From the NCBI GenBank assembly GCA_947630825.1, contig CANRJA010000013.1, positions 1 to 54,164 of the forward strand: 54,164 nucleotides of DNA. The letters are read 5' to 3'. The number at the start of each line of letters is the position of its first letter. Positions within the stretch are counted from its first letter, which is position 1. Position numbers and translations under genes: made by a program. This stretch comes from an uncultured Clostridia bacterium. GTDB taxonomy: Bacteria; Bacillota; Clostridia; Oscillospirales; Ruminococcaceae. Under the pieces are notes generated by a model. It was given only the letters and a program-made list of their open reading frames with translations. It was not told the DNA's origin and did not search any database. This document shows, one piece after another, positions 5,470 to 52,235 of this stretch.

Positions 5470-5656
5470 AAGTATCTCCGGCGGTTCGCCGGTCTTGCCT
5501 ATTACTTCTAGTCTCTAGCTTCTAATCGGTCAATGGCTCCGGCGGCTCGCCAAACACAGCGTTTTATCCTCGCTTACAAATGAAAATCCGCCGTTGTTCA
5601 AATTATAACATTTATCCGACTTTCCAAAGGCGGTAATGACTCCGGCGGCTCGCTGG
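5470..5656. repeat. GC-rich intergenic repeat cluster, three CCGGCGG-TCGCC cores
   Basis: Three CCGGCGG(C/T)TCGC cores lie at about 5478, 5535 and 5641. Between the last two is the sequence CCGCCGTTGTTCAAATTATAA, then CCAAAGGCGG, the same order as in the other repeat copies of this window. The last core ends immediately before the TAG stop codon of pcrA. The orientation relative to the upstream gene is the same as at 1277, 20228, 47711 and 52236. Confidence 0.85.
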
Positions 5657-8014
5657 CTATAGTTTTTTTATCCTTGCGAAATTAGCCATAATTTTCTTTG
5701 TACCCTTTGTATCAAAAGCAATCTCAAGCATCGTATCGTTCGCCATTTTTTTAGCGGTAAGAACCGTACCCTCGCCGAAAATGTTATGTGATACTCTGTT
5801 CCCTACCTCGAAGTTCTGATCCGATGCCGTCCTAGTCTCAGACCTTCTCCTGAAAGCCATATGCTTATTTAGCATATTTGAATCAGAATTTACTTCTCTA
5901 TACTCATGTTCCATACCCGATGGCTGAATCAAGCCCTCGCTCTCCTCATTTAAAAGATCATCAGGAAGTTCCTCAAGAAAACGGGACTTTCTGTTTCTGT
6001 TTGTAACACCGAAAAGTATTCTTTCATTGCTGTGTGTAAGATAAAGCTCTCGCTTTGCCCTTGTTATCGCAACATAAGCTAAACGGCGTTCCTCCTCGAC
6101 TTCCACTTCGCTCTCCATACTTCTCTGTGACGGAAAAATATTTTCCTCCATTCCCACAACAAAAACCGTTGGAAACTCAAGACCCTTTGACGAATGTATA
6201 GTCATCATAACAACATAGTCTCCGTCTTGGTCTAAGTCGTCAACATCGGTAAAGAGCGAGATTTCCTCCAAAAAACCTGATAAGCTGGGTTCTTCCGCTT
6301 CCTCGGAGTATTTTATCATTGTAGACTTTAACTCCTCGATATTTTCAAGACGCATTTCGCCCTCATCGCCTTGAGATTTCAAGAAAGCTCTGTACCCCGA
6401 TACTTCCATAAGCTCGTCTAAAAGTTCCTCTAAAGACACTATTTCAGAAATATCAGTGAGATGCTCAAACATCTGAGCTAAAGGCATTAAAACACTTGCC
6501 TTTCTTGAAAGCGGAACTAAACTTTCGCTCTCTTTCATAACTTCAATTGGTGAAATCCCAAGATCTGAGGTTATCTGCTCTAAAGCATTAACCGTTGCGT
6601 TTCCGATAGAACGCTTAGGCTCGTTGATAATTCTCCTTAATCTAAGAATATCATTGTGGTTATTTACAACCGCCAGATAAGACAATACATCCTTTATTTC
6701 CTTGCGGTCAAAGAACTTCCTGCCTCCGATTATCTTATAAGAAATTCCGCTTTGCACAAACGCCTGCTCAACAGCATTGGATTGTGCGTTCATTCTGTAG
6801 AGAACAGCGTATTCGTTGTACTTTCTGCCCTCTTTTATTCCCGACAGAATAGTGTCAGCAACAAATCTTGCTTCATTTCTTTCGCTGTTTGCGTTATATA
6901 CGTTGACCTTATCGCCGTCGCCCATTGCAGTCCAAAGGTTTTTACCCTTTCTGCCCTTGTTGTTTTTTATAAGCTCATTTGCACAGGTAAGAATATTCTG
7001 CGTAGAACGGTAATTCTGTTCAAGCCTGATAACCGTACAATCATCAAACTGGTGCTCAAATGAAAGAATGTTCTCAATAGTCGCCCCTCTGAATTTATAA
7101 ATGCTCTGGTCGTCGTCACCAACAACACAAAGGTTTTTATACTTAGAAGAAAGCATTGATACAAGACGGTACTGAACCATATTTGTATCCTGATACTCGT
7201 CTACAAGTATGTATTTATACAAATTTTGATAATGGTCTAAAACATCAGGATTTTCTTCAAACAACTTTACCGTATGGCAGATGATGTCGTCAAAGTCCAT
7301 TGCATTAGACGATAACAGCTTGTGCTGGTACAGCTTATACAGCTTGGCGATAGTCGACTTTCTATAATCCGCCTGATTCTGATTTTCATATTCCAAAGGA
7401 GTTATCATCATATCCTTTTGCCGTGATATTTCCGACAAAACAACCCTCGGCGGAAACATTTTATCAGAAATATCCAGTTCCTGCAGGCAGGACTTCATAA
7501 CCCTTTGGGAATCGTCGCTGTCGTATATCGTAAATTCACTTGTAAAACCTATTTTATCACACTCGCGTCTTAAAATCCTAACGCACGCCGAGTGAAACGT
7601 AGCCGCAGTAAGACCGTCTCCTGCCTCGCCCAGCATATTGGATATACGTTCCTTTAATTCTCCTGCCGCCTTGTTTGTAAAAGTAATGGCAAGAATATTC
7701 CACGGCTTTATTGTATTTACCGATACTATTTTCTTTAGCCTTTGGCTGTCGGTTTCCAAACCGTCTGCATAGCGCTTTAAAAACTCTGCGTCTTCATCTG
7801 TAAACAAGGTTTCATTGCTGTTATATGCGTTGCCGAAATATATCATATTTGCTATTCGGTTTACTAAAACAGTAGTCTTGCCGCTTCCTGCTCCGGCTAA
7901 AATCAAAACAGGTCCTCTTATTTTAAAAATCGCCTTCCTCTGCTCGGGATTCATCTTCTCAAAATATTTTTCCAAAGCACTTCTTTTAAGACTTATGTAT
8001 TTATCATTGCTCAT
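5657..8014 (-). CDS. pcrA: ATP-dependent DNA helicase, UvrD/PcrA type
   Basis: An SF1A 3'-5' DNA helicase for repair and for clearing RecA or conflicts. It has 785 residues. Walker A is AGAGSGKTT (residues 40-48). Other motifs are NILAITFTNKAAGELKERI (motif Ia region), VDEYQDTN (Walker B), VVGDDDQSIYKFRGA (motif III), LEQNYRSTQNIL (motif IV), TIHSSKGLEFPTVFVVGMEE (motif V) and RRLAYVAITRAKREL (motif VI). The C-terminus (about 740-785, VGNRVSHNIFGEGTV) is the tudor-like domain that binds RNA polymerase in PcrA. The start has AGGAGG upstream. It is apparently transcribed alone and its stop abuts a repeat. Confidence 0.96.
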   Translation of the reverse strand: MSNDKYISLKRSALEKYFEKMNPEQRKAIFKIRGPVLILAGAGSGKTTVLVNRIANMIYFGNAYNSNETLFTDEDAEFLKRYADGLETDSQRLKKIVSVNTIKPWNILAITFTNKAAGELKERISNMLGEAGDGLTAATFHSACVRILRRECDKIGFTSEFTIYDSDDSQRVMKSCLQELDISDKMFPPRVVLSEISRQKDMMITPLEYENQNQADYRKSTIAKLYKLYQHKLLSSNAMDFDDIICHTVKLFEENPDVLDHYQNLYKYILVDEYQDTNMVQYRLVSMLSSKYKNLCVVGDDDQSIYKFRGATIENILSFEHQFDDCTVIRLEQNYRSTQNILTCANELIKNNKGRKGKNLWTAMGDGDKVNVYNANSERNEARFVADTILSGIKEGRKYNEYAVLYRMNAQSNAVEQAFVQSGISYKIIGGRKFFDRKEIKDVLSYLAVVNNHNDILRLRRIINEPKRSIGNATVNALEQITSDLGISPIEVMKESESLVPLSRKASVLMPLAQMFEHLTDISEIVSLEELLDELMEVSGYRAFLKSQGDEGEMRLENIEELKSTMIKYSEEAEEPSLSGFLEEISLFTDVDDLDQDGDYVVMMTIHSSKGLEFPTVFVVGMEENIFPSQRSMESEVEVEEERRLAYVAITRAKRELYLTHSNERILFGVTNRNRKSRFLEELPDDLLNEESEGLIQPSGMEHEYREVNSDSNMLNKHMAFRRRSETRTASDQNFEVGNRVSHNIFGEGTVLTAKKMANDTMLEIAFDTKGTKKIMANFARIKKL

Positions 8015-8074
8015 TGAGCTTTTTTACCTCCTGAATTTATATACAAAAACAAGTTTATAATGCAATATAACGCT

Positions 8075-8103
8075 ATTATAACACACATTAAAGTAATTTT
8101 AAA
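8075..8103 (-). promoter_or_regulatory. Candidate pcrA promoter with extended -10
   Basis: On the minus strand TGTTATAAT gives a TGn-extended -10 (TATAAT at 8075-8080) about 60 bp before the pcrA start. The -35 region is an AT-rich TTTAAA-like sequence only. The call depends mainly on the -10 element. Confidence 0.5.
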
Positions 8104-8217
8104 GGTTTTTAAATCTAAATTAAGAAAATAATTCTTCAAAACTATAGATTTTTCATAACCGTTGTTGTATAATTTAATTGACGTATTTGTTTTCATTAGT
8201 ATCACGGAGGAATTGCA

Positions 8218-9525
8218 TTGAAACTATATTCAAACAAAAAATACAACACTATAGCGGCTTATGTACTTATCGTTTTGGCAATCGGGTTTGTTATGATAGT
8301 AGCTGTGTTTAAATTCTCTACTATATTAAAAATACTCGGTACGATTGCGGATATTCTAATGCCTGTAATCTGGGGCTTTGCCATTGCATATATACTAAAT
8401 CCTATTTCAATGGGAATAAATAATCTCTTGAATAAAAGGTTATTTAAAAAAAGGCAAATGCCAAAACTTTCTGCAGCTATTTCAGTAACTATAGTTGAGC
8501 TTTTATTTATAGCTTTTATACTTGGCGTAATGTCGATAATCATTCCTGCTTTACTGAACAGCGTATCGGAAATTTTCTCAAACATCACACTTTTGTTCAG
8601 CAAGCTTCAGGAATACGCAAAGTCGCTGTTTTCAGATCACCCTAAAATCTACTCTTTTATTTCAGATAAAATCAGCGAATATTCAACAAATGCTGAAGAC
8701 TTAGTCGACAGAGCAGAGCCTATGCTCAATAACCTTGTTTCCGGCGCATGGGGCTTTTTAGGCTTTTTAAGAGACTTCGTACTAGGCGTTATAGTTTCGG
8801 TTTACTTCCTTTGCAGCAAGGATAATCTTCTTGCACAAATAAAGAAAATACTTCTTGCAAACCTTTCCAGAAGAAAATGTGAAAAGGTTTTTGAAGTATC
8901 TAAAAAGTGTCACAATGTTTTCGGAGGATTTATTACAGGAAAAGTTTTAGATTCACTCATTATAGGTCTGATAGCCGCTCCGTTTCTTCTTATACTGAAA
9001 ATTCCATACGCTGTAATGATAGCCGTTATAATAGGCATAACTAACGTAATACCGTTTTTCGGTCCGTTTATCGGCGCAATACCTACAGGACTTTTAGTTT
9101 TACTTGTTGATCCCGGAAAATTTATTCCGTTTGTGATTTTTGTGATTTTGCTCCAGCAGTTCGACGGAAACTTCTTAGGACCAAGAATTTTAGGCGACTC
9201 AACGGGACTTCCTGCAATATGGGTATTGATTTCGCTTTTAGTCGGCGGAGGGCTGTTCGGATTTGTCGGAATGCTCTTATCTGTTCCTACGTTTGCTGTA
9301 ATATACAGCCTTTCAAGAGATTCTATTGAAAAGAAACTAAAAAGGAAAAAACTGCCCGTCTCGACAAACTATTATAAGAACGATGTAGAACATCTCTATA
9401 AAACAAACAAAAGCAAAAAGCCTCTTACCATTGACGAGCTCTACGCCCTTGATATTCCGAGTACAGACGAGGCTAACGAAGTAGGTGACGCTGCATCTAA
9501 TCCTACTTTGGAAAAGATTGATTGA
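8218..9525 (+). CDS. AI-2E family transporter (YtvI/PerM-like permease)
   Basis: A 435-residue integral membrane protein of the AI-2E/PerM family (PF01594). Members include autoinducer-2 exporters and sodium/proton antiporters, so the substrate cannot be told. Hydrophobic segments occupy about residues 10-100 (three helices), 155-190, and 230-340 (several helices). The conserved segment FGPFIGAIPTGLLVLL is near residue 285. The C-terminal 60 residues are hydrophilic and acidic. The start is TTG at 8218, chosen because GGAGG lies seven bases upstream. A TATAAT at 8168-8173 could be its -10, but the -35 is weak. It is divergent from pcrA. Confidence 0.9.
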   Translation: MKLYSNKKYNTIAAYVLIVLAIGFVMIVAVFKFSTILKILGTIADILMPVIWGFAIAYILNPISMGINNLLNKRLFKKRQMPKLSAAISVTIVELLFIAFILGVMSIIIPALLNSVSEIFSNITLLFSKLQEYAKSLFSDHPKIYSFISDKISEYSTNAEDLVDRAEPMLNNLVSGAWGFLGFLRDFVLGVIVSVYFLCSKDNLLAQIKKILLANLSRRKCEKVFEVSKKCHNVFGGFITGKVLDSLIIGLIAAPFLLILKIPYAVMIAVIIGITNVIPFFGPFIGAIPTGLLVLLVDPGKFIPFVIFVILLQQFDGNFLGPRILGDSTGLPAIWVLISLLVGGGLFGFVGMLLSVPTFAVIYSLSRDSIEKKLKRKKLPVSTNYYKNDVEHLYKTNKSKKPLTIDELYALDIPSTDEANEVGDAASNPTLEKID

Positions 9526-9599
9526 AAACAGACTTTGATAAACGTCGGGGTTTTACCCAATTAAATTTGAATTATTTAAAATATAACTATAAAAGATTT

Positions 9600-9630
9600 A
9601 AGGCAGCCTTTTTATCGGCTGCCTTATATT
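9600..9630. terminator. Bidirectional terminator between the permease and lipoprotein genes
   Basis: AAGGCAGCC (9600-9608) pairs with GGCTGCCTT (9617-9625) across an 8-base loop, with T/A-rich flanks on both sides. It lies between two convergent genes, so it can serve both. Confidence 0.9.
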
Positions 9631-10104
9631 CTATTCCGCTTTTTCTTTTGTTAAATCTATTGAGAAACCAGAATCATTATTATCTACAATTACTTGAAAT
9701 AAAGTACCTCCATTTAGATCTGCTCCCCACAAATTTATTTTCACATCTCCGCAGAAATAATTATAAAGATTGCTGTCTGCTTCAATAACCATATGAGGTG
9801 CTTTGCCAAAAATATCTATCAAATCTGTCATAGTCGTTTTCTTGTTCAATTTAGATAGTTTTTTAGTTAATTCGCCTATGCTCATTTTTTCTAAAACTCC
9901 GTCGCTTTTTGTAACCTTTTCGGCAATTTGCTCAGCATTTTCTTCTTGATTACTTGCATCTTGACTATCGGTCACTTGCATAGAATATTCTTCTTGACTG
10001 TTCACATCTGAACCGGTCACTGAATTTTCCACGCTTTTCTTATTATTTGAACAACCACACAAAACTAACATTGCCATCAATGCCAATAAAAAAATTTTTT
10101 TCAT
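9631..10104 (-). CDS. Putative lipoprotein of unknown function
   Basis: A 157-residue protein with a lipoprotein signal peptide: MKKIFLLALMAMLVLCGCSN, with LCGC as lipobox and Cys18 as the predicted lipidated residue. A low-complexity Glu/Ser/Asp/Gln linker (about 22-65) follows. The small C-terminal domain (about 70-155) has the motif LNKKTTMTDLIDIFGKAPHM, similar in style to SmpA/BLIP-type lipoproteins, which compare short repeats with protein partners. That resemblance is weak. It has its own terminator shared with the convergent permease gene. Confidence 0.75.
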   Translation of the reverse strand: MKKIFLLALMAMLVLCGCSNNKKSVENSVTGSDVNSQEEYSMQVTDSQDASNQEENAEQIAEKVTKSDGVLEKMSIGELTKKLSKLNKKTTMTDLIDIFGKAPHMVIEADSNLYNYFCGDVKINLWGADLNGGTLFQVIVDNNDSGFSIDLTKEKAE

Positions 10105-10166
10105 TCTACCCCTTCTTTCAAAATAATATACTATAAAATTATTATAACATTTAATTTTATTTCTGT

Positions 10167-10201
10167 CAAAAAAATCACGCTCCGCAAAATACAGAACGTG
10201 A
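10167..10201 (-). terminator. Intrinsic terminator of the riboflavin S-component gene
   Basis: On the minus strand TCACGTTCTG pairs, with GU wobbles, to CGGAGCGTGA (10175-10201), followed by seven T residues. It lies between the stop at 10234 and the next gene. Confidence 0.85.
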
Positions 10202-10233
10202 ATTATACAAATATATTAATATTGATATGCTGG

Positions 10234-10914
10234 TCAACTATGCTTTACAAATTCAAAATCTCCACCAAGCAATACTATCATTACCGCAACTGAAATAATC
10301 AAAATAACACAAGCTGTAATAATTCCGCATACAGTGCGTTTATTAAGAGCGAATACGTTTTCTGATTTAGGCAGAATATTCATTGACCTAAGAGCCTGAG
10401 TAACAGGTTTGTAAAGTACAAATGTAAATACTGCGTTAAGCACACTTTTAATAAGATTAAAAGGCAGCAATAACGGCAAAATCATATTTGCAACCGTTTT
10501 AATATCAGTATGGGTATAAATAGGGGTAATTATCAGGTTTGCCAGCATCATTACAGCTGTTGTTGAAAATACCGCAGAAACAAGAGCAGCTATTGCACCT
10601 TTAAAGCTTTTATTATACTTGTAAATTAGAGAAGCCGTTACCGCAAATGCTGCACTGCCGGCAAAATTCATAATAGCACCCCAAAAGCCTGTGCTTGAAA
10701 CAGTAATAAGCTCAAGCAGAGCCTCTATAAATGCTACTGTGACCGCTGCAACAGGTCCGTAAATAAAGCCTGCAAGCGTGATAAACACGTCTTTAAAATC
10801 GAGCGTCAAAAACTGTACTCTAAAGCGGAACACAAAAAGACATATGTACCCCAATGCGATAAATAAGCCCAATACCGAGAGCTTTTTTAAATTATTGTTT
10901 CTTGTGTTTGACAT
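10234..10914 (-). CDS. ribU: ECF transporter S component, riboflavin-specific (RibU-like)
   Basis: Membrane substrate-binding subunit that takes up riboflavin together with a shared EcfA-EcfA'-EcfT module, which is encoded at 43.3-47.0 kb of this window. It has 226 residues with about six hydrophobic helices. The segment FLTLDFKDVFITLAGFIYGP (about residues 36-55) is typical of RibU. The family assignment is strengthened by the FMN riboswitch directly upstream on the same strand. AAAGGAT precedes the ATG. The C-terminal helix (about 195-218) extends past the usual end of some homologues. Confidence 0.9.
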   Translation of the reverse strand: MSNTRNNNLKKLSVLGLFIALGYICLFVFRFRVQFLTLDFKDVFITLAGFIYGPVAAVTVAFIEALLELITVSSTGFWGAIMNFAGSAAFAVTASLIYKYNKSFKGAIAALVSAVFSTTAVMMLANLIITPIYTHTDIKTVANMILPLLLPFNLIKSVLNAVFTFVLYKPVTQALRSMNILPKSENVFALNKRTVCGIITACVILIISVAVMIVLLGGDFEFVKHS

Positions 10915-11003
10915 ATCTAAGTCATCCTTTCTGATTATAAAATATATGCTTGCCTAAGTTAAATCTCAGGCAATTCTCCAAAAAATCATTAGGAAGGAAC
11001 ACC

Positions 11004-11034
11004 AAAAAACCTCTGAACATAATGCTCAGAGGTT
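11004..11034 (-). terminator. Terminator in the FMN riboswitch expression platform
   Basis: On the minus strand AACCTCTGA (11034-11026) pairs with TCAGAGGTT (11016-11008), followed by T residues at 11009-11004. It lies between the aptamer and the RibU-like start codon, so FMN binding most likely causes premature transcription termination. Confidence 0.9.
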
Positions 11035-11061
11035 TACTTTTGCATAAATACAAAAATACTG

Positions 11062-11181
11062 TCGTTTCTTCCATCCGGACTTTAACCGTCGGTTTTGGAA
11101 TTTCACCAAATCAGCAGAGATAAAATCTCTGTTCGTGGACTTTAACCACCGGTGTGGAATTTCACCACCCCCTGAAACTTA
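11062..11181 (-). promoter_or_regulatory. FMN riboswitch (RFN element)
   Basis: Read on the minus strand, the sequence contains the conserved aptamer segments in order: CAGGGGGUGGUGAAAUUCC, ACACCGGUGGUUAAAGUCC, CUGAUUUGGUGAAAUUCC, AACCGACGGUUAAAGUCC and GGAUGGAAGAAACG. The P1 stem, the five inner helices and the variable hairpin (CAGAGAUUUUAUCUCUG) can all be drawn. It stands before the riboflavin transporter gene and is followed by a terminator, the usual off-switch layout. Confidence 0.97.
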
Positions 11182-11220
11182 ATATTTATTTTGATTTCAA
11201 ATAGGCGTAGCTTTTTTACG

Positions 11221-11778
11221 CTAAGCCCTTTCCATATATTCGCCTGTTCTTGTGTCGATTCTTATCCTATCTCCGATTTCAATAAACAGCGGAACCTTTA
11301 TCTCTGCGCCTGTTTCCAAAGTCGCAGGTTTAGTGGCATTAGTTGCAGTGTCGCCCTTAAAGCCAGGGTCTGTTGCGGTAACCTCAAGCTCAACAAAGTT
11401 AGGAGGCTCAACGCCGAATACGTTACCCTTATATGAAAGAACCTTGCAAATCATCTGCTCTTTGACAAACTTAAAATTATCCCCAAGCTCAGAAGCATCT
11501 ATAGGAAGCTGCTCATATGTCTCAGGATCCATAAAGTAGTACAAATCTCCGTCTGTATAAGAATACTCCATATCCTTTCTTTCAACATAAGCCGTAGGGA
11601 ACTTAGCTGTCGGGTTGTAGGTTTTCTCAACAACCGAGCCTGTGATTATGTTTCTAACCTTTGCTCTTACAAATGCAGCGCCCTTTCCCGGCTTAACGTG
11701 CTGGAACTCAACTATCTGCATTACATTGCCGTCTTCTTCAAAAGTCATTCCGTTTCTGAAATCTCCTGCTGATACCAT
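11221..11778 (-). CDS. efp: Translation elongation factor P
   Basis: Binds stalled ribosomes at polyproline stretches and promotes peptide bond formation. The start chosen gives 185 residues, the usual EF-P length. It is the ATG placed eight bases after GGAGG; the longer frame starts at a TTG that overlaps the ribosome site itself. Domains are KOW-like (1-65), OB domain II and OB domain III ending [20 protein letters not shown] and [17 protein letters not shown]. The tip loop is VKPGKGAAF, with lysine at the modification position. It is the last gene of nfo-aroQ-pepP-efp. Confidence 0.97.
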
Positions 11779-11896
11779 AAATTTATCCTCCAAATAATTA
11801 TCATTTTTAAATTCTGCGACTCAATATTATAATTTGAATCTACAAATCTATAATATTATACCAAATATTTATTATAATTGCAACCCCTAAAATAAT

Positions 11897-12961
11897 CTAC
11901 AGTATAATCAGCTCTTTCGGCGCTTTTGTAAGGTTTATACAGCCGTCCTTTTTTAGCACAACAAAATCCTCAATTCTCACTCCGAACTCGCCTGCAATAT
12001 AAATTCCAGGCTCAATAGTCACAACAGAGTTTTCCAAAAGCTCGCAATCAGAGTTAGGAGACGCGTTCGGATACTCGTGTATTTCAAGTCCGACGCCGTG
12101 ACCGAGAGAATGACCGAAACAGTCACCGTAACCCTCATTGGTTATTATATCACGGGCAACGCTGTCAAGCTGACTTCCGATTAACCCTGCTTTTGCAAAC
12201 TTTATACTTTCTTTCTGTGCAGTTAAAACTATTTCGTAAATCTTTCGCTGCTTGTCAGTTGGTTCTCCCATACAGACCGTTCTTGTCATATCGCTGTGAT
12301 AACCGTCATAAACTGCCCCGAAATCCATTAAAACAAAGTCTCCACACTCAATCCTTTTATCACTTGGCACTCCGTGTGGCATTGAAGTGTTCTTTCCCGA
12401 CAACACTATAGTCTCAAACGACATCGCCTCCGCACCGTATTCAAGCATAAGGCTGTCAAGCCTTAAAGCTATCTCTCGCTCGGTTCTGCCGACCTCTATA
12501 AATTTTATAATATCATCAAAAGCCAACTCGGCAATTCTCTGCGCTTTTTCAATTTTTATAATCTCATCATCGCTCTTAACAGTCCGAAGGCTTGCAATAA
12601 GTCGGCTTAACTCCTTATCAGTCTTTATCTTACCCTTAAGATTTGCCTTAAAATCAATAAGTCCGCTGACTGTTAAATAGTCGCTTTCAACAGCAATAGT
12701 TTTTGCTCCGTGCTTTTTCAAAAGACTATTTATCTGATGAAAAAGCCTTTGCTGTTCTATAACCTCGCAGGTTGTGACTTTTCTTCTAGCCTTTTCTATG
12801 TACCGAAAGTCTATAATCAAATATGCACAATCAGGAAAAACCAAAATTGTTCCTGCCGAAGACTTCATATCGGTAAAATAACGTCTGTTCACATCTGAGG
12901 TTATTATTGCGCAGTCGCAGAAATCACCGATTTTAGACTGTAGTATTTCAATATTAGTCAA
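11897..12961 (-). CDS. Xaa-Pro aminopeptidase (M24B, PapA/PepP-like)
   Basis: Removes an N-terminal residue that precedes proline. The start taken is TTG at 12961, six bases after GGGAG, giving 354 residues; its TTGACTAA overlaps the aroQ stop by eight bases. The N-terminal creatinase-like domain spans about 1-125. The C-terminal pita-bread domain shows the five metal ligands in LMDFGAVYDGYHSDMTRT (two Asp), GHSLGHGVGLEIHE (His), TIEPGIYI (Glu) and FGVRIEDFV (Glu). The aroQ-pepP-efp order is the same as yqhS-yqhT-efp in Bacillus, which supports the identity. Confidence 0.93.
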   Translation of the reverse strand: MTNIEILQSKIGDFCDCAIITSDVNRRYFTDMKSSAGTILVFPDCAYLIIDFRYIEKARRKVTTCEVIEQQRLFHQINSLLKKHGAKTIAVESDYLTVSGLIDFKANLKGKIKTDKELSRLIASLRTVKSDDEIIKIEKAQRIAELAFDDIIKFIEVGRTEREIALRLDSLMLEYGAEAMSFETIVLSGKNTSMPHGVPSDKRIECGDFVLMDFGAVYDGYHSDMTRTVCMGEPTDKQRKIYEIVLTAQKESIKFAKAGLIGSQLDSVARDIITNEGYGDCFGHSLGHGVGLEIHEYPNASPNSDCELLENSVVTIEPGIYIAGEFGVRIEDFVVLKKDGCINLTKAPKELIIL

Positions 12962-13406: not shown

Positions 13407-13424
13407 ATAAATCACCGTTTCTAT

Positions 13425-14279: not shown

Positions 14280-14444
14280 AATAACACTTCCTTTATTGTT
14301 TCTTACATACATTGTAGCATATATCGAGGATATTTACAAATGCAATTTTATTCTATTTATTTTCCTGCTTATATTGCAATAGCATTATAAAAATAATATA
14401 ATATATTTATAATATTTCAGCATAATCAACTAAAAGTTTTCGCT

Positions 14445-16093: not shown

Positions 16094-16101
16094 GCAAATA
16101 C

Positions 16102-20150: not shown

Positions 20151-20227
20151 ATTTACGACCCGCCGTTTATCAAATTATGTTTTATATCTAATTTATCAAA
20201 GGTGGAAGTGCCTGCGGCGGCTCGCCG
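20151..20227. repeat. GC-rich intergenic repeat copy
   Basis: The sequence reads CCCGCCGTTTATCAAATTATG, an AT-rich segment, then GGAAGTGCCTGCGG and GGCGGCTCGCC. It has the same order as the copy at 52143-52235. It ends right at a TAG (minus strand) that closes a relic reading frame. Apart from this repeat, the hairpin and the relic, the 350-base gap 20020-20370 holds only AT-rich DNA and a terminator. Confidence 0.85.
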
Positions 20228-20257
20228 CTATCGTATTTTCTTCTTAACAACCTTGCA
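20228..20257 (-). pseudogene. Relic 3' end of a Fn3-type surface-protein gene
   Basis: On the minus strand the codons read SCKVVKKKIR then TAG. The genes at 21873 and 52236 end WSKVVKKKVK and WSKVVKKKTK. Upstream of these codons the frame is not recognisable. Together with the adjacent repeat and hairpin it mirrors the 3' end of the GH59 gene, so it is probably what is left of a deleted paralogue. Confidence 0.55.
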
Positions 20258-42538: not shown

Positions 42539-42578
42539 AACACTTTCACTTCCTCTCTCGGAATATAATACTATTCTA

Positions 42579-43316: not shown

Positions 43317-43320
43317 CTTA

Positions 43321-44124: not shown

Positions 44125-44179
44125 ATCGTCTCACCTCATGTAAATCTTTTTTATATTTCAAATAAATTTCCTCGCAATA

Positions 44180-45220: not shown

Positions 45221-45247
45221 AGCAATTCCTTTCTTTTACAAAAAACT

Positions 45248-46117
45248 TTATGCTTGCTTGCCTAGCATCTTCATAATCAGCTTTTTGCCGTACTCAACCG
45301 TATAAACATCATCATTAATGGGTACTCCCATAGCCTTTAAGCGGTTGAAAACCTTAGTCACCTGAGGAACAGAAAGTCCCATATTTTCAAGTTCATCTGC
45401 TCTTTTGAAAACATTGACAGGAGTATCATAGCAAAACAGCTTTGAATTGTTCATAACAAGTATCTTTGTAGCATTTTTTGCAACGTCCTCCATTGAGTGA
45501 GAGACAAGCATTACCGTGTTTTTCTTTTCCTCGTGATACTCCTTTATCTGACCCAATATCCTGTCTCTTCCCTTTGGGTCAAGTCCTGCTGTAGGCTCGT
45601 CAAGAATAAGCACCTTAGGTTCCATCGCCATAACTCCTGCAATAGCGGCTCTGCGCTTTTGTCCTCCCGAAAGCTCAAACGGCGACTTTTCTAAAATACT
45701 CTCATCAAGCCCTACCAGCCTTGCAGTTTCTCTTATTCGTCTGTCGATTTCATTTTCATCAAGACCCATATTCTTAGGTCCGAACGATATATCCTTATAA
45801 ACCGTTTCCTCAAAAAGTTGGTATTCGGGGTACTGAAAAACCAAACCTACCTTGAATCGCATCTCTCTAAGCTTTTTCTTATCGTCCCAAAGCAGTTCTT
45901 CGTTATCTATGAAAATCCTTCCGCTAGTCGCCTTGAGCAGACCGTTGAAATGCTGTATCAAAGTCGATTTTCCGCTTCCCGTATGCCCGATAACTCCGAC
46001 AAACTCGCCTTCGTCTATATCTATACTTACATTGTCTACGGCAGTATGCTCAAACGGAGTTTTCTCGCCGTAAACGTATGTTAAATTCTCTGTTTTAATA
46101 ATTGATATTTTAATCAC
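45248..46117 (-). CDS. ecfA2: ECF transporter ATPase EcfA2
   Basis: ATPase subunit of the ECF module. The GTG start at 46117 is chosen as AGGGG lies just upstream; the longer frame has an unrelated 12-residue start. It has 289 residues. Walker A GHTGSGKST, Q-loop VFQYPEYQLFEETV (typical of EcfA2), signature LSGGQKRRAAIAGVMA, Walker B VLILDEPTAGLD, and SHSMEDVAKN. The C-terminal EcfA extension (about 220-289) is present. It follows ecfA1 after 51 bp. Confidence 0.94.
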   Translation of the reverse strand: MIKISIIKTENLTYVYGEKTPFEHTAVDNVSIDIDEGEFVGVIGHTGSGKSTLIQHFNGLLKATSGRIFIDNEELLWDDKKKLREMRFKVGLVFQYPEYQLFEETVYKDISFGPKNMGLDENEIDRRIRETARLVGLDESILEKSPFELSGGQKRRAAIAGVMAMEPKVLILDEPTAGLDPKGRDRILGQIKEYHEEKKNTVMLVSHSMEDVAKNATKILVMNNSKLFCYDTPVNVFKRADELENMGLSVPQVTKVFNRLKAMGVPINDDVYTVEYGKKLIMKMLGKQA

Positions 46118-46168
46118 CAATCCCCTAATAGAAATTTTAGAAGCAAGATGCAAGAAACAAGAAATGGG

Positions 46169-47029
46169 TCAACATTTATTCAACAACTCTGAAAGCGCTT
46201 GCACACACTCGTCCTCTGTAATTATCTCAGAATCAAGGCTTATACCCTCGTCAATAAGCATATGTGTAAGCTCCGTCACCTGAGGAACATCAAGACCTAT
46301 ATTCTTAAGCTCCTCGACTCTTGAAAACACCTTTTTCGGAGTGTCGTTCATAACAATTTCTCCGCTGTCCATAACAACTACACGCTCAGCCTGTGCCGCT
46401 TCGTCCATATAGTGCGTTATAAGCACTATTGTAACCCCGAACTCCTTATTGAGCATTTTAATCGTCTTTAAAACCTCTTTCCGCCCGTTCGGGTCAAGCA
46501 TTGCGGTAGGCTCGTCCAATAAAATACAGTCAGGACGCATAGCGAGAATCCCTGCTATTGCGACCCTCTGCTTCTGCCCTCCCGACAGCTTGTGAGGTGC
46601 GTGTTCACGGTACTCATACATACCAACGGTTTTTAATGCGTCGTCAACACGCCTGCGGATCTCCTTAGGCTCTACGCCCATATTTTCAAGCGCAAAGGCA
46701 ACGTCTTCCTCAACGATCGTAGCCACTATCTGATTATCCGGGTTCTGGAAAACCATTCCCACCGACTGTCGAATATCAAGCAAATGCTCGTCATCTTTTG
46801 TATTATAACCGTTGACGATTACGTCTCCCTCCTCAGGAATGTTTATACCGTTAAAGCACTTTACCAGAGTAGATTTTCCGCTTCCGTTATGACCAAGCAC
46901 CGCAACAAACTCGCCTCTTTCAACGGCAAAGTTCAAGTTGCGAAACACTGTTGTCTTTTTAGCGCTCTCATTTTCATCAAAATCATTTATATATGAAAAG
47001 GTTATATTTCTAGCATATAAAAAACTCAT
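46169..47029 (-). CDS. ecfA1: ECF transporter ATPase EcfA1
   Basis: Partner ATPase of EcfA2. The ATG at 47029, six bases after GGAG, gives 286 residues. Walker [11 protein letters not shown]-loop [20 protein letters not shown] (typical of EcfA1), signature [17 protein letters not shown], and Walker [13 protein letters not shown] with [11 protein letters not shown]. It starts the ecfA1-ecfA2-ruvB-ecfT-truA-DUF5711-cvpA run; the module supplies several S-components, one of which is the riboflavin type in this window. Confidence 0.95.
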
Positions 47030-47064
47030 ATTTGTCTCCAAAAAAACATAAATTAAGTAAGCAA

Positions 47065-47478
47065 TTAACCAGCACCTATAATATGGTACTCAAGCAAATG
47101 TCCGTCGGAAAAATCTGATACATTTTCAATAATAGCATCTTCATAATCAAAACTATATTTTGTATGTGTTTTTCCGTCATACCATGTATATCCTGTTTCC
47201 TTGAAACCTGCTTTCTCCATTGCTTGTTCGGCTGTAAAATCATCATTGTAATAAATATATCCAATCCAATGGTTACAGCTTGAGCCTCCCTCACCGCAAT
47301 AGCGACCTTTTTTCAAATGGTAATAATCAGGGTCGTCCAGAACAATGTTTTTGACTAATTTAAAACCGTAAGAAACTTCCCATGTTTTCAAGTATATCCT
47401 TGTTAATGCAACACAAGCAATTCCGATAATCAAAATACAAGCCAGAATAATTAAAACTATTTTTTTAGTCTTTTTCAT
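47065..47478 (-). CDS. Hypothetical single-pass membrane protein
   Basis: A 137-residue protein with an N-terminal transmembrane or uncleaved signal helix (about 7-28, [20 protein letters not shown]). The exported part is rich in Tyr, Asp and Gly, including [21 protein letters not shown] with two cysteines and [19 protein letters not shown]. No family is recognised. AGGAG precedes the ATG. It lies 35 bp before ecfA1 but has a different style, and the region upstream is the repeat cluster. Confidence 0.65.
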
Positions 47479-47509
47479 TTCTTTTATCTCCTATCAAAGT
47501 CTAACATAC

Positions 47510-47766
47510 CGTTTATCAAACTATTCTAATACCTGATTACTCCCCAAAGGCGGCTCACCGTGCAGGGGCTTATCATTATCCTTTATTTCAAAGTAAAGCC
47601 CGCCGTTGTACAAAGTGATACATTATACAATCTCACCAAAGGCGACACCGGATGCAACCTTACAAAAATGAAGGGTTCTATAAAAAGTAAAATCCCGCCG
47701 TTGTGCATTGTCAAACATTTGGCAAACTATAATAGGCGGCTTCTCGTGCAGGGGCTTGCCCCTGCC
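47510..47766. repeat. GC-rich intergenic repeat cluster with GCAGGGGC palindrome
   Basis: Three degraded units: CCGTTTATCAAACT with CCCAAAGGCGGCTCACCG (47510-47566), CCCGCCGTTGTACAAAGTG with CACCAAAGGCGACACCGG (about 47597-47653), and CCCGCCGTTGTGCATTG with AGGCGGCTTCTCG (about 47693-47747). The last runs into the perfect palindrome GCAGGGGCTTGCCCCTGC (47748-47765). Between units is the TTTATTTCAAAGTAAAG segment also found in the tandem array at 0.7-1.3 kb. The right part overlaps the 3' end of the methyltransferase gene. Confidence 0.85.
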
Positions 47767-48619
47767 AGATTGCGGTGGAACCGCATGGCAGAATACCGCC
47801 TGTAGCCTCAACCGGCAATCCAATCTCGTCGGCAGTTACTTTGCCGCCGAACTTTTCTACAAGTATATCGTTTAAAATGTATGCCATAACCGACGGCGAA
47901 AGTCCCGTCGTGTAACTGTTTAATAAAAAGAACAAAGGATTATCTGATAAAACTTCCGAGCATACCTTTACAAGGTCGTAAATCGAGTCTTCTAGCTTCC
48001 AGACCTCACCGTTCGGACCTCTGCCATAGCTTGGTGGATCCATTACAACTGCGTCATAAAGGTTTCCTCGCCTGATTTCTCTGCGCACAAACTTTTCGCA
48101 ATCGTCTACAAGCCAGCGTATAGGCTTGTCTGAAAGGTTAGAAGCCGCAGCATTCTCTCTTGCCCATTGTACCATTCCCTTTGAAGCGTCAACGTGAGAA
48201 ACTAAAGCTCCTGCCTCAGCACAGGCAAGAGTTGCTCCGCCTGTGTATGCAAAAAGATTGAGAACCTTTACCTCTCTGCCTGCGTTTCTTATCTTATCCG
48301 ACATAAAATCCCAGTTTACCGCCTGCTCGGGGAAAAGTCCCGTGTGTTTAAAGCCTGTAGGACGTATGTTGAAAGTCAGTCTGCCGTAAGAAATATTCCA
48401 CGAATCGGGTAGCTTTGCTCTGTATTCCCACTCACCACCGCCCTTGTTTGAGCGGTGATAAACTGCGTCAGCCTTTTTCCACATATTTGATCTGCGTTTT
48501 GACTTCCATATAATTTGCGGATCGGGTCGGACAAGTATCTTACCGCCCCAGCTTTCAAGCTTTTCGCCCGTTGATGTATCTATTATTTTATAGTCTTTCC
48601 ACTTATCTGCTACTCTCAT
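47711..48619 (-). CDS. Class I SAM-dependent methyltransferase (RlmI/RlmK-like)
   Basis: A 302-residue methyltransferase of the family that modifies 23S rRNA (PF10672 type). Motifs are NLFAYTGGATLACAEAGA (SAM motif I), VDASKGMVQWARENAA, and the catalytic-site DAVVMDPPSYGRGPNGEVW. The conserved end LPVEATGGILPCGSTAIW is at about residue 285. The last 17 residues, WQGQAPAREAAYYSLPNV, are encoded by the GCAGGGGC palindrome and repeat, so the normal stop appears to be lost and replaced. AAGGA lies before the ATG. It is 24 bp after glmM. Confidence 0.88.
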   Translation of the reverse strand: MRVADKWKDYKIIDTSTGEKLESWGGKILVRPDPQIIWKSKRRSNMWKKADAVYHRSNKGGGEWEYRAKLPDSWNISYGRLTFNIRPTGFKHTGLFPEQAVNWDFMSDKIRNAGREVKVLNLFAYTGGATLACAEAGALVSHVDASKGMVQWARENAAASNLSDKPIRWLVDDCEKFVRREIRRGNLYDAVVMDPPSYGRGPNGEVWKLEDSIYDLVKVCSEVLSDNPLFFLLNSYTTGLSPSVMAYILNDILVEKFGGKVTADEIGLPVEATGGILPCGSTAIWQGQAPAREAAYYSLPNV

Positions 48620-48643
48620 TTATAAAATCCTTAAAATAAAAGG

Positions 48644-49999
48644 TTATTTTACTCCAAACTTAAATTCCAAAGCGTGAGCTATTGTCTTTGCATAGTCTGT
48701 GATAAGACCAAGATGTTTGCCCTCAATCATTACACGAATTAAAGGCTCTGTGCCCGATTCACGAACCAGTATTCTGCCGTCGTCTCCGAGCTTCTCCTTG
48801 TAGTCCTCAATAAATCTGTTCACTTCAGGCTCCTGTGACCATACACCCTTATACTTCGTATCAATAGTAACATTCTCAAGCACCTGCGGATATTCCTCCA
48901 TAATAGACGCAAGCTCAGACGCTTTTGCCCCTGTGTTTACCATAACCTCTAAGAACCTAACTCCCGTAAGCTCTCCGTCGCCTGTATTAGCTTCATCTAA
49001 AAAGATTATATGCCCCGACTGCTCTCCGCCTAAGTTATAACCGCCCTTTTGCATTTCCTCAAGAACATATCTGTCACCTACGTTTGTAGTTGCCGCAATT
49101 ATATTATCGCTCTTTGCATACTTGAAAAATCCCAGGTTTGTCATAACCGTTACAACACAGGTGTTGTGATTAAGAGTTCCTTTAGTTTTCATATACTTAG
49201 AGAAAACTGCCAAAAGCTTATCTCCGTTTATGATATTGCCCTTTTCATCACAAGCTAAGCATCTGTCAGCGTCTCCATCAAAGGCAAGACCGACATGACA
49301 CCTGTTTTCCACAACGTGCTTGCAAAGCCTCTCCATATGAGTTGAACCGCAGTTATCATTAATGTTTGTTCCATCTGGAGTGTTGTTTATAAAGTAACAG
49401 CTTGCTCCCAAGCCCTGAAACAACTTAACCGCACACGATGACGCAGAGCCGTTTGCACAGTCGATTGCAACCTTGATACCGTTAAAATCGCAGCCGACAT
49501 TTTTCATAATATATCTGACATAATCCCATTCAGCGTTCTTTTCTTCATAAACTCTGCCGATTTTTGTGCCGCTCAAAAGCTCGATTTTTTCTGGTGTGTC
49601 AAGTATAAGCTCTTCAATTTCTTCTTGAATTTTATCGTCAAGTTTAAAGCCTGTTCCTGCAAAAAGCTTTATTCCGTTAAACTCAACAGAATTATGCGAA
49701 GCTGAAATCATCACTCCTGCATCGGCGTTATACTTGTTTACAAGCATTGCAACAGCAGGCGTGGGAACAACTCCCAGCTTATGAGCGTCTGCCCCTACAG
49801 AACAAATTCCAGCTATTAGAGCCGATTCCAGAACATCACTTGATATCCTTGTATCCTTTCCTATCAGTATTTTAGCCTTGTGCCTCTTTTCCTTAGTAAG
49901 AACAATAGCGGCAGCCCTGCCGATCTGCATTGCCATTTCACAGGTCAGCTCAGTAACCGCTACTCCTCTTGCCCCGTCAGTTCCAAATAATCTTCCCAT
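48644..49999 (-). CDS. glmM: Phosphoglucosamine mutase
   Basis: Interconverts glucosamine 6- and 1-phosphate for UDP-GlcNAc and cell-wall synthesis. It has 451 residues. The N-terminus MGRLFGTDGARGVA, the phosphoserine loop GVMISASHNSVEFNGIKLF (about 95-113), the metal loop LAFDGDADRCLACDEKGNI (about 235-253), GGEQSGHI and the phosphate-binding RESGTEPLIRVMIEG are all present. AAGGAG lies before the ATG. It sits between the zinc phospholipase-like gene and the methyltransferase gene, all minus strand. Confidence 0.96.
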   Translation of the reverse strand: MGRLFGTDGARGVAVTELTCEMAMQIGRAAAIVLTKEKRHKAKILIGKDTRISSDVLESALIAGICSVGADAHKLGVVPTPAVAMLVNKYNADAGVMISASHNSVEFNGIKLFAGTGFKLDDKIQEEIEELILDTPEKIELLSGTKIGRVYEEKNAEWDYVRYIMKNVGCDFNGIKVAIDCANGSASSCAVKLFQGLGASCYFINNTPDGTNINDNCGSTHMERLCKHVVENRCHVGLAFDGDADRCLACDEKGNIINGDKLLAVFSKYMKTKGTLNHNTCVVTVMTNLGFFKYAKSDNIIAATTNVGDRYVLEEMQKGGYNLGGEQSGHIIFLDEANTGDGELTGVRFLEVMVNTGAKASELASIMEEYPQVLENVTIDTKYKGVWSQEPEVNRFIEDYKEKLGDDGRILVRESGTEPLIRVMIEGKHLGLITDYAKTIAHALEFKFGVK

Positions 50000-50055
50000 A
50001 TTTCTTCTCCTTCATTAATATTTTATGTTTGCAGACTTCTAATAAAGACTTCTGT

Positions 50056-50757
50056 TTAAAATAAACTTTTGTATAATCTGTCATCGGAAAGCTGTACAAC
50101 AATGTTCATTGAACTTTCTTCAATAAATTCAAGCATTCTCTGATATGTAATATACTTAGGAGTTTTATATTCTTGGTTCTTATTATCAAAAAACTTATTG
50201 CACACAAACCATTTGCTTCCCGAAAGCTCTTCATGAGCGAGCAGACCGTCAACTGAATATCCCCATTCGGTATAAAGCTCCTCACGAACATTTCTTGAAA
50301 AAGGATATTCCCTCGCAAGACGATAATCAATGTCGTCCATATCAAACATAAAGCCGTCAAAAAACTCCTTGCCGTGTTCTGTTTTTTCCTCACCGTTCAT
50401 AGCCTTTATGTATTCCAAACGAACAGTTTTCATAAAAAGCTCGTCACTGAGTAAATGAACCACATATCCCTTTAAAAAATCGTTGTATTTATTACCCTTG
50501 TAAATCCTTTTATCAATAAAGTCGCTTACTCTCTTGTGAAAAAGCTCCTGATTTTCGTCAGTTAAAAACTCAGCGTCTCTTATCCCCTCTCTAAGATGAG
50601 TTTTTTTCTTATCCTTTCTTACAAAACCCGGTCTGGCATGAATAGCGTCAGGTCCTATGCTGCCACAATAAAATAACGAAATATTATCAAACTTTTCATC
50701 TCCCAAAAGCTCAATAATTTTATCCGCTATTGCTATATGTGTAATTGCACCAGGCAT
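50056..50757 (-). CDS. Zinc-dependent phospholipase C-like protein
   Basis: A 233-residue all-helical protein of the zinc-dependent phospholipase C family (PF00882 type). MPGAITHIAIADKI supplies the first Trp/His-like zinc ligands region, FYCGSIGPDAIHARPG the next, KTHLREGI, and LKGYVVHLLSDELFM (His/Asp of the active site). No signal peptide is seen, unlike secreted toxins of this family, so a cytosolic or regulatory role is more likely than lipid attack on a host; the substrate is not known. GGGGG lies before the ATG. It is 27 bp after ruvA. Confidence 0.78.
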   Translation of the reverse strand: MPGAITHIAIADKIIELLGDEKFDNISLFYCGSIGPDAIHARPGFVRKDKKKTHLREGIRDAEFLTDENQELFHKRVSDFIDKRIYKGNKYNDFLKGYVVHLLSDELFMKTVRLEYIKAMNGEEKTEHGKEFFDGFMFDMDDIDYRLAREYPFSRNVREELYTEWGYSVDGLLAHEELSGSKWFVCNKFFDNKNQEYKTPKYITYQRMLEFIEESSMNIVVQLSDDRLYKSLF

Positions 50758-50784
50758 AATTATCTCCCCCTTAACAATATTTCT

Positions 50785-51384
50785 CTACATTGCCGCAAGA
50801 CCTCTCAAAGCCTGCTTTATCATCTCCTCAACAGAAGTTCCAGGGTCAATCGCAGAAACAACCCTAGCCGCGTCTGACTGAGAATATCCCAAAACAACAA
50901 GAGCCGATATTGCTTCTGCGGCATTCCCTTTGCCAACAGCAGAAAAATCAACATTTACGTTCTCACCCATAAGCGCTGCTTCCTTTGAAACCTTGTCTTT
51001 AAGCTCCAGAACTATTCTCTGTGCCACCTTTGGACCTACGCCCTTTGCTTTTGTGAACATTTTAGAGTCACCCGACGCAACGGCAAGCGCAAACGACTGA
51101 GGATCGCACACAGACAAAATAGCCAGCCCTGCTTTAGGTCCTACTCCGGATACCGACGTTAGAATCTTAAATGCATTAAGCTCGTCAAGAGTTGCAAAGC
51201 CGTACAGCGAAACATCAGCCTCACGAACGACCATAGATGTGTAGAGTGTTACATCACCCTGCGCCCCTTGAATCTGACTTATCGTTGACAGAGTCGTATT
51301 ACAAGCATATCCGACTCCTCCGCATTCAATGACTGCGATATCCTGACCGCAGTAAACAAGTTTTCCTTTTACGCTGTAAATCAT
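50785..51384 (-). CDS. ruvA: Holliday junction DNA helicase RuvA
   Basis: Binds Holliday junctions as a tetramer and loads RuvB. It has 199 residues. The N-terminal OB domain spans MIYSVKGKLVYCGQDIAVIECGGVGY, with the two helix-hairpin-helix motifs LTSVSGVGPKAGLAIL and KAKGVGPKVAQRIVLELKDK, and a C-terminal domain (about 148-199) that contacts RuvB. The ATG overlaps the ruvC stop by 4 bases (ATGA-type), so translation is coupled. Confidence 0.95.
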   Translation of the reverse strand: MIYSVKGKLVYCGQDIAVIECGGVGYACNTTLSTISQIQGAQGDVTLYTSMVVREADVSLYGFATLDELNAFKILTSVSGVGPKAGLAILSVCDPQSFALAVASGDSKMFTKAKGVGPKVAQRIVLELKDKVSKEAALMGENVNVDFSAVGKGNAAEAISALVVLGYSQSDAARVVSAIDPGTSVEEMIKQALRGLAAM

Positions 51385-51878
51385 ATTATATCTCCGTATT
51401 TTAAATTATAATTTGACGAATGACCATGCGTGATAGCAAGTGCAAGTGCGTCTGCTGTATCATCCGGCTTTGGAACTTCCTTTAGCTTTAGCATTGAGCG
51501 TGTAAGCTCCTGAACCTGCTTTTTCTCGGCTCTGCCATACCCTACCACCGCCTGCTTTACCTGAAGAGGTGTGTATTCACTAACCTTTATTCCTCGTTCA
51601 ATAGCAGAAAGAAGTATAACTCCCCTAGCCTGAGCAACATCTATTACTGTCTTTTGGTTTGTGTTGAAAAACAGCTTTTCAATACCCATCTCATCAGGCT
51701 CATACTTATCCAAAACCTCGCACATATCGTCATAGATAGTTTTTATCCTCAAATCAAACGGAGTATGCGCCTCAGTGGTTATCGCTCCAAAGTTCACAAC
51801 CTGAAAATCACTGCCAGCATAATCAATCACCCCAAAGCCTACTATTGCATACCCGGGATCAATACCTATTATTCTCAT
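51381..51878 (-). CDS. ruvC: Holliday junction resolvase RuvC
   Basis: Cuts Holliday junctions symmetrically. The ATG at 51878, with GGTGA five bases upstream, gives 165 residues. Catalytic acids are visible: Asp in RIIGIDPGYAIVGFG, Glu in MGIEKLFFNTNQKT, and the Asp pair in PKPDDTADALALAITHG. The first gene of ruvC-ruvA-PLC-glmM-methyltransferase. RuvB is elsewhere, at 44.2 kb. Confidence 0.95.
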   Translation of the reverse strand: MRIIGIDPGYAIVGFGVIDYAGSDFQVVNFGAITTEAHTPFDLRIKTIYDDMCEVLDKYEPDEMGIEKLFFNTNQKTVIDVAQARGVILLSAIERGIKVSEYTPLQVKQAVVGYGRAEKKQVQELTRSMLKLKEVPKPDDTADALALAITHGHSSNYNLKYGDII

Positions 51879-51925
51879 ATCAATCACCGTACCTTTTTAC
51901 GATACTATCCAATGCTTAGATGGAT

Positions 51926-51955
51926 ATTATAATAATATTACTTAAAAGCAAGCAA
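51926..51955 (-). promoter_or_regulatory. Candidate ruvC operon promoter
   Basis: On the minus strand TTGCTT (51950-51955) and TATAAT (51926-51931) are 18 bp apart. No LexA-type box was recognised. Confidence 0.55.
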
Positions 51956-52056
51956 TATTTTCTCAGTTTAATAACAATTAATTATATCATTATTATATAA
52001 AAAATGCAAGTGCAGGAAACCAAGATTATAAGTTAGATATTAGAGATTAGGTACAA

Positions 52057-52086
52057 GAAAAGCGTCCGGAATTTTTCCGAACGCTT
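52057..52086 (-). terminator. Hairpin/terminator after the GH59 gene's 3' repeat
   Basis: AAGCGTCCGG (52060-52069) pairs with CCGAACGCTT (52077-52086), with one GU wobble on the minus-strand RNA, followed on the minus side by TTTTCTTGT. The near-identical hairpin is at 20105-20133. Confidence 0.8.
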
Positions 52087-52099
52087 GTATTACTTCTTG

Positions 52100-52141
52100 C
52101 AATTGTCAATTATCAATTATCAATTGTTAATTATCAATTAT
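52100..52141. repeat. AT-rich direct and inverted repeat of CAATTAT-like units
   Basis: Five CAATTAT/CAATTGT-like units in a row (CAATTGTCAATTATCAATTA and onward). It lies between the hairpin at 52057 and the GC-rich repeat. The rest of the 350-base gap 51888-52235 holds the ruvC promoter, this block, the hairpin and the repeat; no gene is seen. Confidence 0.8.
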
Positions 52142-52142
52142 T

Positions 52143-52235
52143 TAGCCCGCCGTTTATCAAGTTATAACATTTATCAAACTACCCAAAGGCGGCAGTGCCT
52201 GCGGCGGCTCGCCGGTCACCGTTGCCGGCTCGCCG
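52143..52235. repeat. GC-rich intergenic repeat copy with duplicated end
   Basis: CCCGCCGTTTATCAAGTTATAA, TTTATCAAACT, CCCAAAGGCGGCAGTGCCTG and CGGCGGCTCGCCGG, then a second GCCGGCTCGCCG. The last ends immediately before the TAG stop codon of the GH59 gene. This is the clearest full-length copy in the window. Confidence 0.88.

Follow-up and report, generated by a model that had tools for sequence, protein, structure and literature searches.

A clade-restricted hairpin repeat flush with stop codons and tRNA ends in uncultured Clostridia

INTRODUCTION

A GC-rich repeat stands directly behind stop codons on a contig of an uncultured Clostridia bacterium of the Ruminococcaceae (CANRJA010000013.1; 54,164 nucleotides [nt], here called the window). 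What is such a repeat, and how did it come to lie exactly at gene ends? An initial annotation, made from the letters of the window, listed five sites, all in one orientation behind minus-strand genes or gene relics, and placed the core of the repeat 0 to 3 bases from TAG stop codons at four of them. It proposed a mobile miniature element with a stop codon target, an element whose end supplies the TAG, or a 3′-UTR RNA with a role in decay or termination. We followed the repeat through the source genome (a 1.82-Mb draft in 49 contigs, 94% complete, designated G000) and its relatives. The repeat is a real, dispersed, non-coding family restricted to one clade, and its short hairpin lies flush with a stop codon or the CCA of a tRNA much more often than chance allows. 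The annotation was partly right about what is present, and its interpretation is partly supported.

RESULTS

The repeat unit

Read in the sense of the neighboring gene, a unit runs from a short hairpin, H1, through about 9 nt to a longer imperfect palindrome, H2, whose ends pair as CYGCC...GGCRG. As regards terminal inverted repeats, the ends of H2 do pair, but H1 is positioned outside them. The stem of H1 is GC rich and about 6 bp long, with a loop of 3 to 4 nt, and it comes in several unrelated sequences: type A (CCGGCG-AGC-CGCCGG and variants), type B (GCAACG-GTGA-CGTTGC), type C (GCAGGGG-TGA-CCCCTGC), type C2 (GCAGGGC-TGA-GCCCTGC), and type D (CCGGCG-TGA-CGCCGG). The reported order of H2, TGCCTG, and core is preserved in clean copies. 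The bases before H1 vary (TAA, GCA, TAG, ATA, AGA, TGA, and others), but of 149 type-A copies, counted whether flush or away from an end, 136 had a purine (A or G) immediately before the 6-bp hairpin. The 3′ side of H1 reads TGGC, AGGC, ATCC, or ACGC.

The stems carry paired changes. Among 131 distinct type-A copies, selected on four stem pairs, the stem reached exactly two pairs past those four: pair −1/12 was formed in 121 copies (shuffled value, 102.2; standard deviation, 2.2) and pair −2/13 in 96 (shuffled value, 62.6; standard deviation, 4.4). In the same copies, pairs −3/14, −4/15, −5/16, and −7/18 gave no excess over shuffles, and pair −6/17 gave a slight one (P = 0.005). In H2, pair 29/77 was U-A in 28 of 51 copies, C-G in 19, U-G in 2, and unpaired in 2. 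For both helices, the numbers of paired cells and of double-change cells and the covariation score exceeded all 500 shuffles. Four single copies from the window had folding z values of −1.97, −0.15, −1.78, and −3.01.

Two ready identities for the repeat were rejected. Because no run of five Ts directly follows H2 in the clean window copies, H2 is not a plain intrinsic terminator. Nor is the repeat a known Rfam RNA: window positions 700 to 1300 and 52100 to 52300, the two stretches tested, matched no Rfam covariance model at E ≤ 1.

Distribution of the family

The core, CGGCGGCTCGCC, occurred 23 times in G000, versus once for its reversed control. Among 41 relatives, core counts ranged from 0 to 36 within the genus and from 0 to 6 outside it, where the reversed control was as frequent as the core. 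A covariance model built on eight window units (R1) confirmed that the repeat in G000 is far beyond chance, with 87 matches at E ≤ 1 and 60 at E ≤ 0.001. At the latter threshold, each of nine other members of the genus had at least 33 to 120 copies; R1 counts are lower bounds because 150 first-look candidates were scored per genome. The remaining five genomes of the genus had no R1 match at E ≤ 0.001. The type-B H1 core was present in 5 to 24 copies in each bearing genome and in none of these five. On a midpoint-rooted FastTree phylogeny of ten gene ends, the lacking genomes formed one clade (support, 1.0) apart from the ten bearing genomes, to which they are the sister clade.

An exact pattern (type-A H1 plus the start of H2), which misses other H1 types, was scanned against 84,980 GTDB genomes, from which records near the window's genome may be omitted. 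It found 48 stretches, all in metagenome-assembled genomes (MAGs) of uncultured Clostridia named "Lapin-...". Lapin is the French word for rabbit, and the MAG name suggests that the bearing Clostridia probably came from rabbits.

Placement at gene ends

Neighboring genes were taken as long open reading frames (ORFs) and ARAGORN tRNAs, some of which may be wrong, and H1 was called flush when it lay within −11 to +3 nt of a stop codon or CCA. For G000 we used 68 R1 matches at E ≤ 0.01, in 45 clusters. A second set, from named contigs that all belong to Lapin MAGs, held 145 of 154 matches in 85 clusters; the nine matches set aside were eight with E > 0.001 and one truncated where its locus ended. 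The H1 side pointed toward a gene 3′ end in 33 of the 45 G000 clusters and toward a 5′ end in 12; in the named contigs it pointed toward a 3′ end in 58 clusters, a 5′ end in 23, and neither in 4. The single orientation described by the initial annotation therefore holds at the five window sites but not genome-wide. The outcome that the annotation had named as contrary, with copies equally often upstream of genes, in both orientations, or far from stops, did not occur.

H1 was flush in 15 of 33 cases in G000 versus 3.0 expected under uniform placement in the gap. The corresponding count in the named contigs was 37 of 58; where both neighbors were available, it was 32 of 52 versus 5.8 expected. 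No uniform-placement simulation reached the observed count in either set. Orthologues and paralogues make up much of both sets, but once each family of upstream genes was reduced to a single member, H1 was still flush in 25 of 48 (expected, 4.8; maximum in 50,000 simulations, 14). The other end of the unit behaved differently. The H2 end never abutted a convergent stop (0 of 53); the nearest distances were 50 nt (22 cases) and 36 nt (31 cases).

Flush ends were TGA 6, TAA 4, TAG 3, and tRNA 2 in G000 and TAG 19, TAA 13, TGA 4, and tRNA 1 in the named contigs. TAG was modestly overused in the named contigs only (19/36 versus 82/254; Fisher P = 0.02, orthologues and paralogues included). The proposed rule that TAG is the target is therefore rejected, since all three stop codons, and tRNA ends, occur flush with H1.

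Stop codons supplied by the repeat

We compared the 3′ ends of ten genes, picked for an element at the stop in G000, across the genus. Under a strict hairpin rule, which misses some type-B hairpins with their base further upstream (comM and rluB), a hairpin stood at the stop in 57 of 94 ends of the bearing clade (49 of 84 when G000 was left out) and in 0 of 47 ends of the lacking clade.

At dut, typA, rluB, and comM, H1 provides the last residues and the stop codon, which sometimes lies in its loop. Dut ends in GSTGTK in 5/5 lacking genomes and in GSTGQR in 10/10 bearing genomes, where CAA CGG TGA is the left arm plus the loop of a type-B H1. Lacking genomes have R, H, or K as the last residue of TypA; its stop, TGA or TAA, falls within an H1 loop carried on the stem CAGGGC, CAGGGG, or GCAACG in 8 of the 10 bearing genomes. 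ComM, RluB, and a 236-aa gene showed a similar pattern. The idea that the end of the element supplies the stop thus holds at the four named genes, but the codon is a TGA or TAA in the H1 loop and not a terminal TAG. In a TsaB-like gene of G014 (L253), H1 holds no stop; by our reading of the alignment, the ORF seems to continue through H1 into H2, and the C-terminal tail of the protein seems to be derived from the repeat. Some caution is needed with the C-terminal residues of conserved proteins, which can stem from repeats, as with the QR of Dut.

Turnover of H1 types

H1 type switches at orthologous stops, and differences were found at w1278, typA, c19, ilvC, comM, and ung. At w1278, H1 is type A in G000, G002, G004, and G005 and type B in G007, G010, and G014. 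At c19 it is type A in five genomes, C2 in two, and absent in three. At ilvC, five genomes have type B, three have a B-like hairpin followed by a type-A hairpin, and two have none.

The closest species pair, G000 and G010, differs at 63 of 408 four-fold sites. We read 30 sites of this pair by eye, comprising the ten genes and 20 of 26 further alignments (k1, k4, k23, k25, k30, and k32 were unreadable and were set aside). H1 type or make-up differed at 12 of the 30 (seven of these 20 alignments plus comM, rluB, typA, ung, and w1278). By a check with R1, another six differed only in the number of units, and twelve agreed. Stacked and hybrid H1s were common, and stacked H1s frequently began right behind the TGA of an earlier H1. 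Because orthologous stops in sister species bear different H1 types, the alignments point to copies that exchange sequence at the hairpin or are replaced repeatedly; the data do not separate the two.

Hairpins at tRNA ends

G000 yielded 22 distinct tRNAs, from 30 of 39 pattern places, and the element-lacking genome G001 yielded 24. In G000, 8 of the 22 had a GC-rich hairpin no more than 2 nt from the CCA (types A 4, B 3, and C 1, by reading). The H1 copies at tRNAs have separate terminators behind them. In G001, 3 of 24 tRNAs had a hairpin right after the CCA, and two of the three loops contained TGA. Hairpins of this kind may have stood at tRNA ends before the repeat expanded, since G001 has them too and the difference between the genomes was not significant (Fisher P = 0.086). 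Among the G001 tRNA genes (L293-L322), tRNA-Arg and tRNA-Gln have TGA-loop hairpins directly after the CCA that are possible forerunners of H1.

Copies in the window

R1 matched all five reported sites, each on the minus strand (728-1275, 5415-5654, 20156-20226, 47596-47760, and 52143-52213). The first is a tandem array with a period of about 102 bp, made of five full H1-plus-H2 units (798-869, 900-971, 1002-1072, 1103-1174, and 1205-1275) and a partial unit (728-767). Its last H1, a type-A hairpin (1263-1277, GCGGCG-AGC-CGCCGC on the minus strand), abuts the TAG stop (1278-1280) of a minus-strand DUF4364 gene (1278-1862). Three H1 copies occupy the second site (cores 5479-5490, 5540-5551, and 5643-5654), where a clear H2 (5588-5633) accompanies only the last. 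That H1 (5642-5656) adjoins the TAG (5657-5659) of a PcrA/UvrD helicase gene (5657-8014). At these two genes the 15-nt hairpin touches the stop, as reported.

The other three sites fit the annotation less well. At 52143-52236, several H1 hairpins stacked into a composite (52201-52236) come after H2 (52147-52192) and extend to the TAG (52236-52238) of an fn3-domain gene (52236-54128). The exact core (52202-52213) lies 22 nt from this stop, but a second core with two mismatches (52223-52234) touches it inside the composite. The site at 20156-20228 has an H2 (20160-20205) and an H1 (20214-20228), and 20228 had been given as a gene stop. No ORF ends there; the nearest called ORF (at least 70 aa) ends 144 nt away, and the site lies beside a fragment of about 24 nt that is like the 3′ ends of fn3 genes. 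Because the approximately 24 nt before the TAG at 20228 resemble 3′ ends of the fn3 family to which the gene at 52236 belongs, these two sites are not independent. At 47596-47760 there are two degenerate units, and the TGA (47711-47713) of a methyltransferase-like gene (47711-48619) falls within the H2 of one of them and does not adjoin H1. Of 47 listed gene ends in the window, three have a flush H1.

The fn3 gene of the window belongs to a large family with fn3-like lysine-rich C-terminal ends (window 52236-54128; L010 7001-7924), to which G010 and G014 contribute about 60 match rows. Several members have the element at the stop, and these genes were apparently duplicated together with it. 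Two further repeats occur near the element. An AT-rich one, (CAATTAT)n / TTGATAATTGACAATGGATAATTG, lies at window 52100-52141 and at many related loci (for example, L097, L124, and L179), sometimes behind a stop codon at loci that have no hairpin element. The other, (TAGAAGCAAGAGGCAAGA)n, often stands between a TAG stop and H1 (upstream of H1 in L030, L040, L036, and L026). The window also contains a flavin mononucleotide (FMN) riboswitch on the minus strand (11059-11183; Rfam RF00050, 106.9 bits).

DISCUSSION

How the repeat may spread and turn over

We consider it probable (about 0.62) that this is a new clade-restricted, non-autonomous palindromic repeat family of the kind of repetitive extragenic palindromes (REPs) and bacterial interspersed mosaic elements (BIMEs), with a history of the following sort. 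The repeat would initially have spread through some DNA transposition or recombination activity. Copies would then collect just past the 3′ ends of genes, with H1 turned toward the stop or tRNA CCA and in contact with it, and selection against damage to coding sequence would set the left boundary at the stop. Where the junction fell just ahead of the old stop, the TGA or TAA of H1 would become the new one, with one to three residues added. Copies would later swap sequence at the hairpin, by gene conversion or template switching and not by fresh insertion, and through such exchange orthologous genes would retain a hairpin at the stop, but of another type.

Several observations weigh against this reading. 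The steps do not fully explain how large the excess at the very stop is; a genuine gene-end signal, or selection that favors a hairpin there, may contribute to it. About a quarter of the clusters face gene starts, so gene-end placement is a strong bias and no law. No insertion with a target duplication was noticed in the G000/G010 alignments, in which no systematic search was made, and mobility is for this reason something that we only infer. Y1_Tnp, the transposase domain of REP-associated tyrosine transposases (RAYTs), gave no match at E ≤ 0.001 in the draft G000; it is missing from three further bearing genomes, and two of the lacking genomes have it. Reverse transcriptase (PF00078) was found in G000, G003, and G013 only, that is, in 2 of the 10 bearing genomes. 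In a half-hairpin test of type B, the left arm alone was found in 5/19 and 9/32 cases, versus 3 and 3 for the right arm alone; for types A and D the counts were swamped by chance motifs. The structural evidence is also uneven: of the five covariation measures, two (how many pairs show a double change, and how many pair types occur) were not above shuffles, RNAalifold predicted no consensus structure when given the alignment of 51 copies, and one of the four window copies folded unremarkably (z = −0.15).

A search for a mover that was confined to Y1 transposase and reverse transcriptase found none; it did not extend to integrases, to further families of transposases, or to differences in gene content. 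The genus has 12 Y1_Tnp loci, of which one lay near a strong R1 match and two near weak ones. We reject a RAYT-driven REP on this count and because the distribution of Y1_Tnp is unlike that of the repeat. Retro-mobility by an encoded reverse transcriptase is rejected as well, since 8 of the 10 bearing genomes had no PF00078 match. The mobile miniature element of the initial annotation thus fits a family that is dispersed, clade restricted, non-coding, and variable in presence, but we saw neither a transposition event nor a target duplication, and no transposase that would match.

Other explanations

A tentative and rather unlikely idea goes further than the history just given: a device might recognize gene ends as such, with H1 an exchangeable end cap whose loop is able to become a stop codon. 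Because any stop codon and the tRNA CCA are used, it may be in the RNA, or by way of translation, that the gene-end signal is read. Somewhat unlikely, in our judgment, is that H1 is a functional RNA element. It would fold where the mature part of the transcript stops (stop codon or CCA) and would protect, trim, or terminate the RNA, and type switches would retain a hairpin since the structure is needed. H1 touches stop codons as well as CCA ends in one orientation only, the typA hairpin is maintained on three different stems, and hairpins follow the CCA in the lacking genome G001 also, although the tRNA counts of the two genomes do not differ significantly. A terminating ribosome, however, would cover a flush H1, and H2 is no plain terminator. 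Few gene ends in the window have a flush H1, many copies lie away from gene ends, and orthologues in the bearing clade are often without the hairpin (c19, 3/10 genomes; trpGD, 5/9). The paired changes in the stems include stop and coding bases (c19, TAACGGCG/CGCCGTT; trpGD, AGCGGCG/CGCCGCT), but they are no proof of an RNA role by themselves, because template switching, reported to create and maintain RNA hairpins (PMC8794818), can keep hairpins paired.

A transposing element with a true preference for gene ends, whose transposase or recombinase inserts 3′ of the purine-ending triplet of stops and CCA, would account for the A or G before the hairpin, for the tandem arrays, and for stacked H1s that begin directly after an earlier TGA. 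We think it distinctly improbable. Neither an enzyme nor a target duplication was found, and AT-rich intergenic DNA is rich in purine-ending triplets, so such a preference alone does not explain the excess at true stops. It is harder still to credit that the placement is a passive by-product of copies spreading with duplicated gene 3′ ends. The 52236 gene, the 20228 fragment, and fn3 paralogues do have flanks in common, but the 25 of 48 upstream families that remain flush after related genes are collapsed refute duplication as the full cause.

Comparison with known systems

The REP/BIME-like family that we favor has precedents for its gene-end and stop-lending habit in REP and RU-1 repeats. 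REPs sit near gene 3′ ends, and GTAG REPs often give a TAG stop to the adjoining ORF (PMC3733652). The claim of the initial annotation that no such family had been described therefore stands for the sequence, within our searches (we found no description of this hairpin family in open-access papers), but not for the habit. Like REPs and BIMEs, the repeat consists of short palindromes in high copy number that are mostly extragenic, lie near gene 3′ ends, and may lend a stop. Unlike them, it has mutually unrelated H1 stems and head-to-tail arrays, and G000 has no RAYT; no unpaired GTAG/CGTC tag was seen at the hairpin, although no systematic scan of both ends was made. It also occurs in Clostridia, and the word Firmicutes does not appear in the REP paper (PMC3733652). 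Enterobacterial RU-1, a repeat of the ERIC type, can fuse to a gene 3′ end and replace the stop (PMC2759123); it differs in being a 127-bp element with long translated extensions, not a set of flush hairpins of many types.

Miniature inverted-repeat transposable elements such as RUP are likewise small, non-coding, and dispersed, but here no target duplication or parent insertion sequence was found, without a systematic search. Integron attC sites also lie at stops and conserve structure over sequence; the genes concerned here are scattered housekeeping genes, not cassettes. Rickettsia palindromic elements insert in frame within genes, whereas the copies described here are at gene ends. Those elements, too, are palindromic repeats that meet genes (PMC2229807).

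With ten bearing and five lacking species and mapped orthologous ends, the choice of gene ends by REP-like repeats becomes testable, as do the rate of hairpin exchange between loci and any RNA role of gene-end hairpins. Our literature searches met no account of the family or its clade, of so many types of stem, of a stop in the loop, of type switches at orthologous stops, or of contact with the CCA. The repeat is a clean example, in many copies and several species, of a repeat that abuts stops and CCA ends and lends stop codons to genes.

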